Source: Lactobacillus sp. ESL0700
GTDB lineage: Bacteria; Bacillota; Bacilli; Lactobacillales; Lactobacillaceae
DNA: 64,000 nt
Reading direction: 5' to 3'
NCBI RefSeq assembly: GCF_029392095.1
Contig: NZ_CP113930.1
Coordinates: 124,001-188,000, forward strand
The notes under the pieces were generated by a model. That model was given only the letters and a program-made list of their open reading frames with translations, did not search any database and was not told where the DNA came from. Positions 21,711 to 28,494 of the stretch are shown piece after piece. A program made the translations under genes and the position numbers. Each line of letters begins with the position of its first letter. The stretch's first letter is position 1.

Positions 21711-21739
21711 TTGACACCTGCTACTATGTTTCATATAAT
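21711..21739 (+). promoter_or_regulatory. liv operon promoter
   Basis: Consensus TTGACA (21711-21716), 17-nt spacer, TATAAT (21734-21739). The transcript would start near 21746, about 270 nt before livJ, leaving room for the leader below. Confidence 0.8.
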
Positions 21740-21781
21740 ACTAATTATTAAATATAAATGAATTTTAAGGAGGTATTTTTA

Positions 21782-21877
21782 ATGAAAATCGAAAACTTTA
21801 TTAAGCAAAACATTAAGATAAATGCCGCTCAAAATTTGTTTGCCTTGTTGTTGCGCGGGAGGACTCAACTTAAGTAA
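21782..21877 (+). CDS. Leucine-rich leader peptide of the liv operon
   Basis: 31-codon ORF with a very strong Shine-Dalgarno (AAGGAGGT, 21770-21777). It encodes a peptide ending LFALLLRGRTQLK. Four Leu codons (all TTG) fall within six codons, 21836-21853, including three in a row, and a fifth Leu lies two codons before the stop. It ends 137 nt before livJ, inside an RNA region with mutually exclusive hairpins. The function is therefore probably ribosome stalling under leucine shortage, not a stable protein. It is too short for most gene callers. Confidence 0.75.
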   Translation: MKIENFIKQNIKINAAQNLFALLLRGRTQLK

Positions 21878-21982
21878 TTACTTTCTCAGTAATTTTATAA
21901 GTTAAGCCCTAGTTTGCGTCTTAATGAATGGGGCTTAACTAATCAGGATAAACCTCATTCATTAAGTTGAATGAGGTTTTTA
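21867..21982 (+). promoter_or_regulatory. Transcription attenuator (four-segment) of the liv operon
   Basis: Segments: 1 (21867-21881) pairs with 2 (21889-21903); 2 extended (AGTTAAGCCC, 21900-21909) pairs perfectly with GGGCTTAACT (21931-21940); CTTAATGAATG (21920-21930) pairs perfectly over 11 bp with CATTCATTAAG (21956-21966); AACCTCATTC (21951-21960) pairs perfectly with GAATGAGGTT (21969-21978), followed by TTT, as terminator. A ribosome stalled at the Leu codons leaves 1:2 free to form and exposes the antiterminator. A ribosome at the stop codon covers segment 1, lets the 21900/21940 stem form, and the terminator follows. The pairings are seen; the logic is inferred by analogy with amino-acid operon attenuation. 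Confidence 0.7.
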
Positions 21983-22014
21983 AGTTGGTAATTTTAGAAA
22001 AAGGAGCGAGAAAA

Positions 22015-23208
22015 ATGAAACGAGTTACTAAACGAATAATGGGCGCCATATCAGCGGGCGCAATTGCCTTAATGATGGCTGGTTGTGGTGCTGCTAAGAA
22101 TACAAGCAAGGGCACACACCAAGACAATAAAACGGTCAAGATTGGGGTTAACATGGAATTGTCTGGGACAGCAGCTGGTTATGGTAATGCCCAAAAGCAA
22201 GGGATTCAGCTGGCAGCCGAGCAGATTAATGGTGCTGGTGGTATTAATGTCAATGGTCATAAGAAAAAGATTAAGCTAATTATTCGTGATAATAAGACAA
22301 CAATCGCAACGTCGGCCTCGGTAGCGGCACAATTGACCACTAAGGATAAGGTGGCCGCAATTGTGGGGCCGGCTACAACTAATGCTGGGACAGCGGAAAT
22401 TCCTAATTTGACTAAAGCGAGCGTACCGAGTGTTAGTCCGTCAGCGACCGATCCGGGTTATACGCTGCAGAAGAATGGCAAGGTGCAACCGTTTGTGTTC
22501 CGGGCATGTTTTCAGAATAATTTCCAAGGACGCAGTGCCGCTCGCTTTGCAGAAAATAAGTTAAAGGCGCAACGTGTGGCGGTATATGCCGATAACTCAA
22601 GTGATTATGGTACAGGACTAGCTAAGGCATTCAAGCAAACTTTCAAAGGCAAGATTGTCGATAGTCAGACTTATTCCGAAGGTGATAAAGACTTTAATGC
22701 AGTGTTGACTTCATTTAAAGGAAAGAAAATTGACGCGATTTATGTTCCAGGCTATTACACCGAAGTTGGTTTAATTGTTAAGCAAGCACGGCAAATGGGC
22801 ATTAAGGTACCAATTATCGGTAGTGATGGTATGGCTGACCCGAAGCTCGCACAAATTGCCGGTGCCAAGAACGCAACTAACGTTTACTACACCACACCAT
22901 TTTCAGTTCATGTTGCAGCTAAAAACCCAACAGCCGTTAAATTTATGAATGCTTACAAGGCACGTTACCACACAACAGCGCCAACGTTCTCGGCTTTAGC
23001 TTATGATTCGGTTTATATGGTTAAGAAGGCAATTGAGGACGAAAAGTCCGATGATTCTGTCAAAATTGCAGCTGGTCTTGCTAAGATCAAAGACTTTGAT
23101 GGGGTTACCGGTAAAATCACCGTTAACAAGACTCATGATCCAGAGATGCCAATTGCAATTGAACAAATGACCGATGGCAAAGTAAGCAATTCATTTAGTA
23201 TCGAATAA
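22015..23208 (+). CDS. livJ: Branched-chain amino acid ABC transporter substrate-binding lipoprotein
   Basis: 397-aa lipoprotein of the type I periplasmic-binding fold (Leu/Ile/Val-binding family). The signal ends in the lipobox MAGC, so the mature protein is lipid-anchored outside the membrane. The ligand-binding core shows KIGVNMELSGTAAGYGNAQK and the hinge-region SATDPGYT. RBS AAAGGAGCGAG precedes the ATG at 22015; the frame is open to 21967 within the attenuator. It is the first gene of livJHMGF, and expression is probably set by the upstream leucine attenuator. Confidence 0.93.
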   Translation: MKRVTKRIMGAISAGAIALMMAGCGAAKNTSKGTHQDNKTVKIGVNMELSGTAAGYGNAQKQGIQLAAEQINGAGGINVNGHKKKIKLIIRDNKTTIATSASVAAQLTTKDKVAAIVGPATTNAGTAEIPNLTKASVPSVSPSATDPGYTLQKNGKVQPFVFRACFQNNFQGRSAARFAENKLKAQRVAVYADNSSDYGTGLAKAFKQTFKGKIVDSQTYSEGDKDFNAVLTSFKGKKIDAIYVPGYYTEVGLIVKQARQMGIKVPIIGSDGMADPKLAQIAGAKNATNVYYTTPFSVHVAAKNPTAVKFMNAYKARYHTTAPTFSALAYDSVYMVKKAIEDEKSDDSVKIAAGLAKIKDFDGVTGKITVNKTHDPEMPIAIEQMTDGKVSNSFSIE

Positions 23209-23237: not shown

Positions 23238-24116
23238 TTGCAAACAGTCTTACAGCAGATTATCAATGCCTTATCACTCGGGTCGATTTATGCTCTATTA
23301 GCGCTCGGCTACAGTATGGTTTACGGTATTATCAAGTTAATCAATTTCGCTCACGGTGACATATACATGCTTGGCGCTTTTGCGGCCTACTATGTAATCA
23401 GTCTTTGGCATTTTAATTTTATTACGGCGCTGCTCACGGCAATGATTGTTGGTGCGCTATCTGGTGTTGTGATTGAATACTTTGCTTATCGGCCATTACG
23501 CAAGTCGCCGCGGATTGCGGTTTTAATTACGGCAATTGGGGTGTCGTTTTTGTTAGAAAACGGCATGTCCTACTTGGTAGGGTCAAATGCACGTAGCTTT
23601 CCCCAAGTGATTGAGCAGGTCAACTACAATTTGGGCGGGGTATTAATTTCAAATATTCAGATATTGATTTTGGTAACAGCCCTGATTTTGATGGTTTTAC
23701 TGCAATTAATTATTAAGAAAACCAAAATGGGTCGCGCTATGCGGGCAGTCTCGGTTGATCCAGAAGCAGCCGAATTAGTTGGTGTTAATGTTAATCACAC
23801 GATTTCGTTTACCTTTGCTTTGGGTTCGGCTCTAGCGGGTGCTGCCGGAATTTTAATTGGCATGTATTACAACCAGATTGACCCGTTAATGGGGATGACA
23901 CCGGGCATTAAGGCCTTTGTTGCCGCTGTTTTAGGTGGTATTGGGTCAGTTCCAGGAGCAAGTCTAGGGGGCTTCTTGATTGGTATTTTGGAAACCTTCT
24001 TCCAGTCAATTGGCCTGTCAGCTTACAAAGATGCGGTTGTTTACCTTGTCTTGATTGTAATTTTACTCTTCTTACCAGCTGGTATTTTTGGTAAAAATAC
24101 TGAAGAAAAGGTTTAG
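23238..24116 (+). CDS. livH: Branched-chain amino acid ABC transporter permease LivH
   Basis: 292-aa integral membrane protein with the LivH signature INFAHGDIYMLGAFAAYY near residue 35 and the coupling region GRAMRAVSVDPEAAELVGVN. The start is TTG (23238) with AAAGGG 9 nt upstream; no ATG is available at the N-terminus. It forms the channel with LivM. Confidence 0.92.
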   Translation: MQTVLQQIINALSLGSIYALLALGYSMVYGIIKLINFAHGDIYMLGAFAAYYVISLWHFNFITALLTAMIVGALSGVVIEYFAYRPLRKSPRIAVLITAIGVSFLLENGMSYLVGSNARSFPQVIEQVNYNLGGVLISNIQILILVTALILMVLLQLIIKKTKMGRAMRAVSVDPEAAELVGVNVNHTISFTFALGSALAGAAGILIGMYYNQIDPLMGMTPGIKAFVAAVLGGIGSVPGASLGGFLIGILETFFQSIGLSAYKDAVVYLVLIVILLFLPAGIFGKNTEEKV

Positions 24117-24124
24117 GTGGCAGT

Positions 24125-25087
24125 ATGAAAGCTAATTTAAAATATATCTTATCGTGGCTGGCTGTGATGGTCTTGGGCTTTGCCCTAATTGATGTCCTGA
24201 TTTTAGGCGGCGTGATTGATACCTTTATTGAAAACATGTTGGTTACAATCGGCATTAACATTATTTTGGCAACAGGTCTGAATCTGATTATAGGCTTTAG
24301 TGGGCAATTTTCATTAGGGCATGCCGGCTTTATGGCAATTGGCGCGTATGCCACCGCAATTATTACACAATATTGGAGTACAGAAATGGGCTTCATTATT
24401 TCCTTGTTTGTTGGGATAGCTTTAGCTGCGATTATTGCCGCAATTATTGGGACAGCAACGTTTATCAGGCTAAAGGGCGACTACTTGGCAATTGCAACTT
24501 TAGGCGCTGCCGAGATCATTCGCAATGTCATTAACAATTTAAAAATCACGGGTGGTTCTAGTGGGATGTTTAATATCCCCCAGCTGTGTTCATGGCCAAC
24601 AGTATACGTTTTGGTCTGCATCACGACCGTTATTTTACTGAACTTTATTCGCTCACGTGATGGCCGAGCCATTAAGGCAGTGCGTGAGGATGAAATTGCG
24701 GCCTCCGCAATGGGAATTAATACAACTAAGTGGAAGCTAGCTGCCTTTGTCTTAGGTGGTGCGACGGCCGCAATTGCTGGCAGTCTGCACGCTTCTTATT
24801 TACAAACTATTGCACCAAGTGACTTTGGCATTATGGAATCAATCTCGATTTTAGTAATTGTTGTTTTGGGTGGTGTTGGCAGTATGACAGGCACCTTCTT
24901 GGCAGCGACTGTTTTAGGTGTTTTAGACACAGTCTTACAGAATTTTGGTTCGTTAAGAATGGTTATTTATGCGATTGCTCTGATTTTAATTATGATTTTT
25001 AAACCGTCGGGGCTGCTGGGCAACTGGGAATTTTCCTTTAAAAACTTGTTTGCTCGGTTTACGAAAAAGAAAGAGGCAAGATCATGA
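24125..25087 (+). CDS. livM: Branched-chain amino acid ABC transporter permease LivM
   Basis: 320-aa membrane protein paired with LivH. It carries the family signatures GFSGQFSLGHAGFMAIGAYA and GRAIKAVREDEIAASAMGIN (coupling helix). AGGTGG lies 5-8 nt before the ATG, and its stop overlaps the livG start. Confidence 0.92.
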   Translation: MKANLKYILSWLAVMVLGFALIDVLILGGVIDTFIENMLVTIGINIILATGLNLIIGFSGQFSLGHAGFMAIGAYATAIITQYWSTEMGFIISLFVGIALAAIIAAIIGTATFIRLKGDYLAIATLGAAEIIRNVINNLKITGGSSGMFNIPQLCSWPTVYVLVCITTVILLNFIRSRDGRAIKAVREDEIAASAMGINTTKWKLAAFVLGGATAAIAGSLHASYLQTIAPSDFGIMESISILVIVVLGGVGSMTGTFLAATVLGVLDTVLQNFGSLRMVIYAIALILIMIFKPSGLLGNWEFSFKNLFARFTKKKEARS

Positions 25088-25866
25088 TGCACTTATTACA
25101 AGTAGACCATGTTGTCCGCAAGTTTGGCGGTTTGACGGCGGTTAACGATGTTTCGCTGCATCTTGATGATCAAGAGTTAGTGGCCTTGATCGGACCAAAT
25201 GGTGCTGGTAAAACGACACTGTTTAATCTTTTAACGGGGATGATTCCGGTAACTAGTGGAAAAATCGCACTGAATAAAAGCTCGCAGAACTATGATTTAA
25301 CCAAGGCAAGTGCCACGAAGATTGCAGACTTGGGTTTGTCGCGAACTTTTCAAAATATTCGCCTGTTTAAAGATTTAACGGTAATGGATAACGTCTTAAC
25401 GGCGATGACCAATAAGTATCATGAAGGCTTTATGACAGCTATTCTGCGACTGCCCAATTTTTATCAAACAGAGCGCGAAATGCGAGTAGCAGCAGAAAAG
25501 CTGCTGGCAATCTTTGACTTAACAGAAAATGCTAATACGCTGGCTAAAAATTTGCCGTATGGAACTCAAAGACGGCTGGAAATTGTGCGGGCATTAGCTA
25601 CTAGACCACAAATTTTATTCTTAGATGAGCCGGCTGCGGGGATGAACCCAGAAGAAACGGCGGATTTAACCCAATTAATTAAGCATATCCAAACAGAATT
25701 TAAAATTACGGTTTTGCTAATTGAACATGATATGTCGCTAGTGATGAATTTGGCGCAGCGAATTTATGTTTTGGACCAAGGGCAGATTTTGGCAACTGGG
25801 ACACCAGAAGAAATTAAGGCTAATCCAAAGGTAATCGAGGCCTACTTGGGAGAAGGTGACGAGTAA
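25084..25866 (+). CDS. livG: Branched-chain amino acid ABC transporter ATPase LivG
   Basis: 260-aa ATPase with Walker A GPNGAGKTT, the LivG-type motif GLSRTFQNIRLFKDLTVMDN, and Walker B ILFLDEPAAGMNPEE. The signature motif is NLPYGTQRRLEI, the degenerate form typical of LivG. Two ATGs stand in tandem (25084, 25087); the first overlaps the livM stop by four bases. Confidence 0.92.
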   Translation: MMHLLQVDHVVRKFGGLTAVNDVSLHLDDQELVALIGPNGAGKTTLFNLLTGMIPVTSGKIALNKSSQNYDLTKASATKIADLGLSRTFQNIRLFKDLTVMDNVLTAMTNKYHEGFMTAILRLPNFYQTEREMRVAAEKLLAIFDLTENANTLAKNLPYGTQRRLEIVRALATRPQILFLDEPAAGMNPEETADLTQLIKHIQTEFKITVLLIEHDMSLVMNLAQRIYVLDQGQILATGTPEEIKANPKVIEAYLGEGDE

Positions 25867-26576
25867 TGGCAATGCTAGAAGTGAAAAATTTAGTGGTTAA
25901 TTACGGCGTCATTCAAGCGGTCAAAGGCGTCAGCTTTAAAATTGAAAAGGGTGAAATTGTAACCTTAATTGGTGCCAATGGTGCTGGTAAATCAACCATT
26001 GTTAAAACAATTTCTGGTCTGTTAAAACCCAAGGATGGTGAAATTATTTACCAAGGTGCGGCGATTGAACACCAGAAGGCACCACAAATTGTGGCCGCTG
26101 GAATTTCACAGGTTGCCGAAGGTCGACATATTTTTGCAGGAATGACAGTCATGGAAAATTTGCAAATGGGTGCTTTTTTAGCCCGTGACAGGTCGCAAAC
26201 AAAGCAGAGTTACGATGAGGTGTTTGCTCGTTTTCCTATTTTAAAGAAACGAAAAAATCAAGATGCGGCTACCCTTTCCGGTGGTGAGCAGCAAATGCTG
26301 GCAATGGGGCGAGCATTGATGGCAAGGCCCAAATTACTCTTGCTAGATGAGCCGTCAATGGGTTTATCACCGCTGTTTATCCAAGAGATTTTTACAATTA
26401 TTAAGGAATTAAACCAAAGAGGAACGACAATTTTATTGATTGAACAAAATGCCAAGCAGGCACTAGCCATTGCTAATCGCGGATATGTATTGGCAACTGG
26501 CAATGTCCAATTATCTGGTACAGGTGCAGAATTATTGGCTAATCCTGATGTTCAACGAGTTTACTTTGGCGGTTAA
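25866..26576 (+). CDS. livF: Branched-chain amino acid ABC transporter ATPase LivF
   Basis: 236-aa second ATPase of the LivGF pair, with Walker A GANGAGKST, signature LSGGEQQML and Walker B LLLLDEPSMGLSP. It starts in a TAATG overlap with livG; a second ATG at 25872 is possible. A terminator follows, closing a five-gene unit. Confidence 0.92.
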   Translation: MAMLEVKNLVVNYGVIQAVKGVSFKIEKGEIVTLIGANGAGKSTIVKTISGLLKPKDGEIIYQGAAIEHQKAPQIVAAGISQVAEGRHIFAGMTVMENLQMGAFLARDRSQTKQSYDEVFARFPILKKRKNQDAATLSGGEQQMLAMGRALMARPKLLLLDEPSMGLSPLFIQEIFTIIKELNQRGTTILLIEQNAKQALAIANRGYVLATGNVQLSGTGAELLANPDVQRVYFGG

Positions 26577-26751: not shown

Positions 26752-27702
26752 ATGGCTGATAAATATAATAAAAAGAAACTGGCACAGAGTGCGGCCATTG
26801 CCAGACTTTATTATGAAGAAGATTTAGGCCAATCCGAGATCGCACACCAGGTTGGGCTTTCAAGGCCGACAGTTTCACGACTATTGAAATTGGCCCGTGA
26901 AACAGGCATCGTCGAGATTAAAATTTCTAATCCATTAATTAATAGTAATCGTTTAAGTGAACAATTATCGAAAAAGTTTAATTGTAAAATTTCAGTTGTT
27001 CCCAGCAATTTTAATGGTGAACTAACGGCGCTCAAAGGTGTGGGGGTATATACTGCGCAATATTTGCAGCAGCTAATTAAACCACATGATATTGTTTGCT
27101 TGGACTGGGGCAGGACAATTCATATGGTAACAAGTAGCTTGGAAAAGCAAGTTGTTCCCGACGTGCAGGTTGTCCAACTCCAGGGCGGCGTAAATATCAA
27201 TAACGAGGAGACGTATGCAGATGAGAGTGTGTCTGAGTTTGCTGCTGCTCTTGGTGCAACTGCCCACTTCTTGCCGCTGCCGCCGTTTTTTGATAATAAA
27301 ACTACTAAGGAAATCGTGGAAAAAGATCACTTTATTAATCAGGCATTGCAGTTAGGCCGCGCTGCTAATATTGCCGTTTATAGTGTCGGCGCGGTGCGCA
27401 AGGACTTATTGCTGTTTCAGCTAGGGTATTTTAATAAATCACAGAAAAAGCAGCTGCAAGAAAAGGCAGTGGGCGAAGTCATCTCGCACTTTATTGATTC
27501 TAATGGCGACATTGTTAGCCGCGAGCTTGATGAACGGACTGTCGGCATAGGATTAAAGGACTTAAAATCAAAGGACCACTCGATTTTAGTTGCCAGTGGA
27601 ATTTTAAAGACGCCAGTCGTTTACGCCGCGATTAAGGCTGGCTATCCCAACGAACTTATTTTAGACCAGGCAATTGGGCAGGAATTACTTACCTATCAAT
27701 GA
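26752..27702 (+). CDS. SorC/DeoR-type sugar-binding transcriptional regulator
   Basis: 316-aa regulator. The N-terminal HTH (AQSAAIARLYYEEDLGQSEI, GLSRPTVSRLLKLARETGIV) is followed by a SorC/CggR-like effector domain that binds phosphorylated sugars (GVGVYTAQYL, VQLQGGVN, VGAVRKDLLL). It resembles B. subtilis DeoR, which controls deoxyribonucleoside use, but no deo gene is adjacent, so the target is open. GGAG lies 6 nt before the ATG at 26752; an in-frame ATG at 26740 and codons further up have no such site. It is a single-gene unit. Confidence 0.85.
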   Translation: MADKYNKKKLAQSAAIARLYYEEDLGQSEIAHQVGLSRPTVSRLLKLARETGIVEIKISNPLINSNRLSEQLSKKFNCKISVVPSNFNGELTALKGVGVYTAQYLQQLIKPHDIVCLDWGRTIHMVTSSLEKQVVPDVQVVQLQGGVNINNEETYADESVSEFAAALGATAHFLPLPPFFDNKTTKEIVEKDHFINQALQLGRAANIAVYSVGAVRKDLLLFQLGYFNKSQKKQLQEKAVGEVISHFIDSNGDIVSRELDERTVGIGLKDLKSKDHSILVASGILKTPVVYAAIKAGYPNELILDQAIGQELLTYQ

Positions 27703-27781: not shown

Positions 27782-28294
27782 TTATTTGAAAAATAGTTGC
27801 TGGATTTTTTGAAATTGCTTTACCTTGATTAATTTTAATAAAACAATGCTGGCAACAATTGAGCCGATAATGGCAGCGCCAATAAAGCGCGGCGTGTAAA
27901 CAAACCAGTAAAGATTGTTAGTGCTGCCGGTAAACAAGACCATCACCGGATAAGAAAGGAGCGACCCGATGATTCCAGTACCGATGATTTCACCGAGGCA
28001 AGCTGCCCAGACTTTGCCGGTTATTTTGTAAAAAATTCCAGCTAATACTGCACCGAAGATGGCACCAGTTAAAGCCAGCGGCGGAATGCCCATGATTAAC
28101 ATTCTGATAATCCCGCACAAAGTGGCCATGATGGTTACATAAACTGGCCCTAGCATCGTGGCACCAATCACGTTGATTACGCTAGACATCGGTGCCATCC
28201 CTTCCACGCGAAAGATTGGGGACAATACCACATCCAGCGCAATCATAATTGCCAAAATAGTAAGTTTTTCCGTTTGTTTCCCTTTGTTAGTCAT
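27782..28294 (-). CDS. thiW: ThiW: ECF S-component for thiazole (thiamine precursor) uptake
   Basis: 170-aa membrane protein with about six helices. It matches ThiW: VLSPIFRVEGMAPMSSVINV near the N-terminus and GIIRMLIMGIPPLALTGAI in the middle. ThiW binds hydroxyethylthiazole and uses the shared EcfAA'T module, which is elsewhere. The gene is preceded by a TPP riboswitch and terminator, which confirms a thiamine link. The start is ATG 28294 with GGGAG five nt upstream; a TTG at 28306 is less likely. Confidence 0.92.
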   Translation of the reverse strand: MTNKGKQTEKLTILAIMIALDVVLSPIFRVEGMAPMSSVINVIGATMLGPVYVTIMATLCGIIRMLIMGIPPLALTGAIFGAVLAGIFYKITGKVWAACLGEIIGTGIIGSLLSYPVMVLFTGSTNNLYWFVYTPRFIGAAIIGSIVASIVLLKLIKVKQFQKIQQLFFK

Positions 28295-28314
28295 TTTAAC
28301 TCCCAACTAGCCAT

Positions 28315-28350
28315 ACAAAAAATCCCATTCGCACCATAGCGAACGGGATT
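28315..28350 (-). terminator. Riboswitch expression-platform terminator
   Basis: 12-bp stem (28350-28339 with 28332-28321; one mismatch or wobble) followed by U-rich sequence, between the TPP aptamer and thiW. Bound TPP should favour this terminator. Confidence 0.85.
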
Positions 28351-28363
28351 TAGCTTAATTAGC

Positions 28364-28432
28364 CTATTCCTTGCGCTGGTATTGTCCAGATCAGGTTCAT
28401 GGGTTTAATCTCAGCTCAAACGCACCCCATAG
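28364..28432 (-). promoter_or_regulatory. TPP riboswitch (THI element)
   Basis: Minus strand: CTAT..GGGGTGCG, then GCTGAGATTAAACCC, then TGAACCTGATCTGGACAATA, then CCAGCGCAAGGAATAG. CTGAGA, ACCTGATC and GCGCAAGGAA are the conserved thi-box elements; CTAT/ATAG and TGCG/CGCA close the P1 stem. Confidence 0.97.
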
Positions 28433-28494
28433 ACTTTATTAATAAATATTAATCTTGATTATACGCTTTCAACAATATAAAAGAAAGCGGTAAA

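Follow-up and report, generated by a model that had tools for sequence, protein, structure and literature searches.

Upstream of an operon for the import of branched-chain amino acids, Lactobacillus sp. ESL0700 carries a short open reading frame (ORF) with clustered leucine codons, followed by RNA segments that can pair in more than one way, which raises the question whether the operon is controlled by the ribosome that translates this ORF. The locus lies within a stretch of 64,000 nucleotides (contig NZ_CP113930.1, positions 124,001 to 188,000) that is called the window here and whose own numbering is used throughout. We consider it highly likely that the leader is a ribosome-mediated attenuator on livJHMGF, which senses charged leucyl-tRNA and belongs to a homologous, order-wide class of elements in which the codons and the target genes have been exchanged.

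Leader, RNA segments and operon in the window

The features of the locus are listed below. Segments A to D were assigned by pair counts and a comparison of cognate with swapped pairing partners; for each liv gene the best NCBIfam match is given, which in every case lies under the curated cut-off.

21711..21739, plus strand: sigma-70 type promoter TTGACA-17-TATAAT, matching the consensus at 12/12 positions with a spacer of 17 nt
21767..21774, plus strand: Shine-Dalgarno sequence of the leader ORF, AAGGAGGT; an AGGAGG-like sequence also precedes the leaders of relatives
21782..21877, plus strand: leader ORF MKIENFIKQNIKINAAQNLFALLLRGRTQLK, 31 codons, with ATG at 21782 and stop codon at 21875-21877
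21836-21838 and 21845-21853, plus strand: control codons, Leu TTG at codons 19, 22, 23 and 24
21860..21881, plus strand: segment A, the conserved AGGACT core (21860-21869) and the 5' arm of an inner hairpin
21889..21910, plus strand: segment B, partner of A or C
21913..21918, plus strand: TTTGCG, a conserved unpaired motif, mostly invariant or nearly so in 31 aligned rows
21920..21940, plus strand: segment C, pairing with B through its 3' part and with D through its 5' part
21951..21966, plus strand: segment D, forming either the antiterminator with C or the terminator with E
21969..21981, plus strand: segment E with the T-run, making up the 3' arm of the predicted intrinsic terminator (D:E paired in 99.6% of cells)
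22015..23208, plus strand: livJ, branched-chain amino acid binding protein (NF011933)
23238-24116, plus strand: livH (LivH)
24125-25087, plus strand: livM (LivM)
25084-25866, plus strand: livG (LivG)
25866-26576, plus strand: livF (LivF)

A first-pass annotation, made from the sequence, had described a consensus promoter, a 31-codon ORF with a strong Shine-Dalgarno sequence and four Leu TTG codons within six codons, and a livJHMGF import operon behind them. Promoter and ORF came out the same on recounting, and the operon agrees with the best NCBIfam matches, weak as these are against their cut-offs. A scan listed 3 promoter-like sites compared with a mean of 3.2 in shuffled sequences, so that the perfect match alone makes this promoter notable. 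With the Leu share taken from nine window genes (0.103), four or more Leu within 6 of 31 codons would arise by chance with P ~0.02, and TTG is not a rare codon in the window (share among Leu codons 0.29, against 0.34 for TTA and 0.08 for CTA). As expected of a ribosome-mediated attenuator, the leader thus combines a translatable ORF and its ribosome-binding site with control codons that match the substrate of the operon, four Leu in six codons ahead of a branched-chain importer.

The proposal that the host is a leucine auxotroph agrees with its genome, in which LeuA, the one leu/ilv gene searched for, had no match, the same search being positive in 14/14 control genomes. CodY likewise had no match in the host; this search was positive in 2/14 controls, Bacillus subtilis and Lactococcus lactis. 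When the host genome was searched at the DNA level with the leader, the leader itself was the sole match. Adjoining livF, the window contains a gene for a DeoR/LsrR-like sugar-type regulator (26752-27702, plus strand; best model below its curated cut-off), and a TPP riboswitch (28350-28439, minus strand, 61.5 bits) lies upstream of a minus-strand ORF at 27782-28306.

Of four RNA pairings that the first-pass annotation had called exact, three are so: 21900-21909 with 21931-21940 (10/10), 21920-21930 with 21956-21966 (11/11, or 14/14 including one GU when extended to 21933 and 21953) and the terminator stem 21951-21960 with 21969-21978 (10/10 pairs). The remaining one, 21867-21881 with 21889-21903, has 12 Watson-Crick pairs and one GU in 15 positions, and the A:B pairing that is conserved among relatives consists of 21860-21869 with 21901-21910 (8/10 in the window strain) together with the inner hairpin. 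As first written, pairings two and three have no base in common; once extended they have four (21930-21933). Since B:C and C:D overlap so little, they should exclude each other mainly because the 5' part of C is enclosed in the hairpin loop that B:C forms. The leader fold was more stable than 200/200 shuffles (z -3.86). The leader therefore contains mutually exclusive pairings that end in an intrinsic terminator, the T-run of which is short in the window (approximately five T, 21977-21981), and this predicted terminator was absent from the output of a simple terminator scan.

Conservation of control codons and coevolution of pairings

LivJ searches yielded 36 copies of livJ in 27/75 genomes of the same genus, and a leader ORF of like layout was found upstream of all 36, 31 of these being homologous to that of the window and 5 differing in sequence. 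Most of the 31 homologous peptides consist of a Leu run, two or three further residues, Arg-Thr and the stop. Deviating runs were Val-Ala-Val-Leu-Ile-Ile in L018 and Ile runs followed by two Leu in L019-L022, and one leader (L037) stops directly after its run. Since Ile or Val replaces some of the Leu codons in L018-L022 and L027 retains a single Leu, these leaders may respond to branched-chain amino acids as a group. The type II leaders L023-L027, whose LivJ proteins are 52-54% identical, differ in sequence and have one to three Leu, and their five segments are able to pair in the same order (AB, BC, CD and DE duplexes of -8.9 to -23.9 kcal/mol).

In nine genomes of the genus, two livJ copies are separated by about 5 kb (by 1.5 kb in G053), and each copy has its own leader, the two leaders differing in sequence (L009/L037, L011/L030, L012/L032, L013/L033, L014/L036, L015/L034, L016/L029, L017/L035 and L019/L028). 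Among named genomes, 17 of 19 livJ loci had a leader by a simple rule, including Lactobacillus helsingborgensis, L. bombicola, L. apis, Lentilactobacillus hilgardii, Levilactobacillus parabrevis, Secundilactobacillus silagei and Pediococcus stilesii; by the same rule none was found at two Levilactobacillus loci (L274 and L275), the contigs of which are as long as those of L175 and L176, two loci with a leader. The closest named LivJ, from Lactobacillus sp. ESL0679, is 99% identical.

For the control codons, 197 leaders from all searches were compared, that is, the collected loci minus ten family-level rejects, L254, L257 and L212, with near relatives kept and at least one element present twice (L121 = L208). 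In 181/197 leaders, three or more of the last 12 codons before an AGG(A/G)(C/T) motif encode Leu, Ile or Val; among the 16 misses are L004, L009 and L095, which do have a leader but whose motif starts with another base, as well as L220 and L223, in which no leader ORF was found. The gap between the last branched-chain codon and the AGGAC-type motif is 6 or 7 nt in 149/181 leaders. Of 125 LLL runs, 54 are written as three TTA, 38 as three TTG, 15 as three CTA and 18 as mixtures, so that one codon is used thrice in 107. The amino acid is kept while the codon changes, which argues for decoding as the conserved property. Leaders from beyond the family often have an Ile run, such as MQLLSQQNIIIIINNRT ahead of an aminotransferase gene, or a mixed one, such as MKFRQLKAVILIIRFRT ahead of ilvD.

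The first-pass annotation had proposed to align relatives and to look for conserved Leu codons and covariation of the pairings; in this comparison the Leu codons and all pairings were conserved, and the paired segments coevolve. In alignment A1 (31 rows, 28 distinct), the paired share of cells is 98.2% for B:C and D:E, which exceeded 500/500 shuffles in all five measures. For A:B together with C:D the share is 87.8%; three measures, covariation included, were above 500/500 shuffles, and the count of double-change pairs and the pair types were not (reached by 53 and 52 of 500 shuffles). A:B contains a conserved mismatch, at which the pair is open in 25/28 rows. In alignment A5, which is more diverse and the model of which contained neither A:B nor C:D pairs, paired cells, double-change cells and the covariation score for A:B and C:D were above all shuffles, the double-change pairs were not (186/500) and the pair types were so barely (7/500).

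The clearest test, which assumes no fixed pairs, was the comparison of cognate with swapped partners among 48 diverse leaders. Cognate partners were superior for AB (z -6.1), BC (-8.9), CD (-10.8) and DE (-16.9), with 0/2000 permutations reaching the observed value in each case, whereas the control pairs AC, BD, CE and AD showed no cognate advantage (z 0.2, -0.3, 1.7 and -0.7). Because these four controls have equal relatedness, relatedness alone does not explain the signal of the predicted pairs.

Distribution of the element and genes behind it

The element was searched for with iteratively built covariance models for the genus (R1), the family (R2) and the order (R3), the two wider scans covering a genome sample under stricter filters. 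All three models miss the type II leaders L023-L027, so that the counts are lower bounds. R1 detected the element in 26/75 genomes of the genus at E <=0.01, a tally in which four genomes besides G000 carry extra weak matches judged to be false, or such matches only. Weak R1 matches (L100-L104, E 3e-4 to 0.0084, one of them in the host) were rejected, as none has a leader ORF that contains a run of branched-chain codons. Six genus matches, in six genomes, precede a gene for an oligopeptide-type solute-binding protein of 588-602 residues (oppA; assigned by PF00496 for L094, the other five being alike by sequence), and two of these genomes (G050 and G054) had no LivJ match. At L096, L097, L098 and L099, an amidohydrolase-like gene of approximately 394 residues, named by eye, follows 53 nt behind the oppA-type gene.

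R2 gave 116 matches in 98/397 family genomes and 18/40 sampled genera (E <=0.001), and R3 matches in 75/395 order genomes and 33/80 genera, with five leaders from outside the family in its training set; both tallies include matches that were rejected later. Of the R2 loci, 110/116 were examined, five known genus matches and one antisense duplicate being excluded. Target genes were assigned by tblastn to one representative each, with Pfam names taken from the representatives, and their counts are inflated by close relatives. Behind the 110 family loci we found 65 livJ, 26 leuA, 6 leuB, one gene for an amino-acid binding protein and 12 without assignment. The first-pass annotation had taken the placement ahead of an importer for unusual, which does not hold, as this is the commonest placement in the family. 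Ten family loci (L115, L122, L124, L127, L187, L189, L192, L200, L202 and L203) were discarded on the same ground as the weak R1 matches, the lack of such a leader ORF. L086 has a leader on a contig that ends ahead of the gene, and L191 one without assigned target.

Sixty order loci, 56 of them outside the family, precede 19 ilvD, 10 livJ, 8 PTS_EIIC_2, 6 SBF-type, 5 dppB-like, 4 branched-chain aminotransferase and 2 leuA genes, one gene each for CstA, an oppA-like and an amino-acid binding protein, and 3 without assignment. Two of the examined loci (L254 and L257) were rejected, L225 has a leader and no assigned gene, and at L220 and L223, both ahead of livJ, there is no leader ORF by the rule used. 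Every assignable target is a branched-chain amino acid gene, a peptide gene or a transporter. The PTS_EIIC_2 membrane proteins (PF13303) stand behind branched-chain leaders at L117, L206, L207, L216, L219, L231, L234 and L253 in families f2 and f7; branched-chain amino acids or compounds related to them may be their substrates. SBF-type proteins (sodium/bile acid symporter family) stand behind Ile-rich or mixed leaders at L230, L233, L241, L242, L244 and L256 in families f2, f5 and f7, and in genus g4 (L186 and L212) a mixed leader ending in LAVILI lies ahead of a family 3 amino-acid binding protein.

Proposed mechanism, alternatives and known systems

Judged from its sequence, the leader very probably switches the operon on when leucine runs short. 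If leucine is scarce, the leading ribosome would stall at the Leu codons, a few bases short of segment A; A would then take B and leave C free for D, so that the terminator D:E would be blocked and transcription would read through into livJ. If leucine is plentiful, the ribosome would reach the stop codon just behind A and mask A; B would then close on C, D would be free for E, and termination would occur near 21980. Readthrough would also be expected from an untranslated leader. The leading edge of a ribosome lies approximately 11 nt past the A-site codon; a ribosome at Leu 22 should therefore leave A free and one at the stop codon should cover it, and with this footprint the codon run is positioned so that a stalled ribosome exposes other segments than a free one does. 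The analysis itself shows the ORF, its codons, the pairings with their conservation and coevolution, and the target genes; we infer which way the switch works, that leucyl-tRNA is its signal, that the polymerase pauses and that transcripts terminate in vivo. TTTGCG at 21913-21918 is conserved and unpaired, and judged by this and by the pause consensus of RNA polymerase, our guess is that it could be a pause site.

Equilibrium folding of 48 leaders before E is available gave 9.3 expected C:D pairs with A free compared with 4.9 with A masked, C:D being increased in 28/48, equal in 18/48 and decreased in 2/48 leaders. In the window leader, C:D was favoured before E in both states of A, and once E was included the terminator fold won at 5/5 ribosome positions tried. 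As equilibrium always favours the terminator in the complete leader, the switch would have to be kinetic and dependent on the order of folding. A crude greedy simulation of co-transcriptional folding gave 10, 8 and 15 of 48 leaders behaving as predicted and 13, 5 and 2 reversed at three barrier settings.

A T-box or a small-molecule riboswitch could also drive the terminator, with the short ORF being incidental, and this would fit the terminator/antiterminator pair as well as the common occurrence of branched-chain T-boxes in related bacteria (accessible part of PMC2494555). We regard this reading as hardly credible, because the ORF and its Leu codons are kept through synonymous changes, for which a T-box has no need, and because no family in Rfam 15 reached its gathering score over the leader, which also has no T-box or riboswitch match up to E 10; nor did the T-box model match anywhere in the window at its gathering score. 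In 19 related loci, gathering scores returned no T-box or riboswitch and a single match altogether, a tRNA elsewhere in L117. It is quite unlikely, too, that the leader peptide reports a stalling nascent chain or translation in general instead of leucine supply. The residues following the Leu run are indeed conserved, as a terminal RT within the genus and as KDPT elsewhere among the genera, but they are encoded by segment A, so that RNA pairing explains their conservation; moreover, leuA-type leaders end directly after LLL, and in other lineages the run becomes Ile ahead of branched-chain genes.

Two mismatches in the conserved A:B core, a stop codon three codons further downstream and the short T-run might indicate that the element is functional in relatives and has decayed in the window strain. 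Against this, the Leu codons remain intact, as do B:C, C:D and D:E, an alternative A:B extension provides 13/15 pairs, A:B forms when A is free, and the relative L003 has the same moved stop with the rest kept; decay of the element is accordingly improbable in our view.

Under the preferred reading, a leucine-sensing attenuator, leader-peptide control, which is best known from biosynthetic operons, would act mainly on importers and here in a host without LeuA match, so that the cell would meter the entry of leucine via its own translation. A wider proposal, which we hold to be rather more probable than its opposite, is that a single RNA class absent from Rfam 15 serves lactic acid bacteria as a movable branched-chain attenuator, in which a fixed relay core is combined with an evolving Leu, Ile or mixed run before genes for importers, peptide uptake and leu/ilv biosynthesis. 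It would be the main leucine control in hosts that, like the present one, have neither CodY nor LeuA, and would mark PTS_EIIC_2 and SBF-type proteins as transporters of branched-chain amino acids, keto acids or peptides. Membership in the class thereby offers substrate hypotheses for transporters with uninformative Pfam names.

The type of mechanism is classical. The enterobacterial leu, ilv, his and trp leaders have control codons in a leader ORF, a chain of mutually exclusive hairpins and a terminator. The window leader differs from them in having five segments, its codon run upstream of A and its stop at A. The readthrough expected of the untranslated window leader is also the opposite of the behaviour of the trp leader without translation. 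The leu leader and the isoacceptor theory are treated in PMC1183508, as far as its accessible part goes. In bacilli, histidine leader peptides precede hisS and hisZ (accessible part of PMC2965389), so that Firmicutes use a leader peptide for attenuation at sites where one might have expected a T-box, although for another amino acid and other genes; the main text of that paper contains none of the words livJ, leucine and branched. Branched-chain leader attenuators are described for biosynthesis in Staphylococcus, Listeria and Corynebacterium. A Lactobacillus importer under a leader-peptide attenuator was not found in the open-licence literature, including the accessible parts of PMC5794164, PMC6123439, PMC2965389, PMC2494555 and PMC1183508, and within this literature the RNA class, its placement before importers and the exchange of the sensor codons appear to be undescribed.

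The closest parallel is the ilvD (ilv-leu) attenuator of Staphylococcus aureus, which, in the accessible text of PMC5794164, likewise combines a leader peptide rich in Leu and Ile with alternative folds and a terminator in a Gram-positive bacterium, and for which readthrough on Leu shortage was proposed. That attenuator controls biosynthesis and acts together with CodY, whereas the window leader precedes an importer in a host without CodY match. Compared by description, the S. aureus antiterminator pairs with the U tail and leaves the terminator stem intact, whereas in the window D is taken from the terminator. Leaders of ilv/leu operons in Lactococcus lactis and Streptococcus, members of the same order as the window host, are predictions (refs 62 and 65 of PMC5794164) with a branched-chain leader peptide and, in the accessible part of that source, are described for biosynthesis. 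R3 leaders with an AGGACT-type core occur before ilvD in families f3, f5 and f8 and before leuA in f3, and some of these leaders may be the elements predicted in Lactococcus and Streptococcus.
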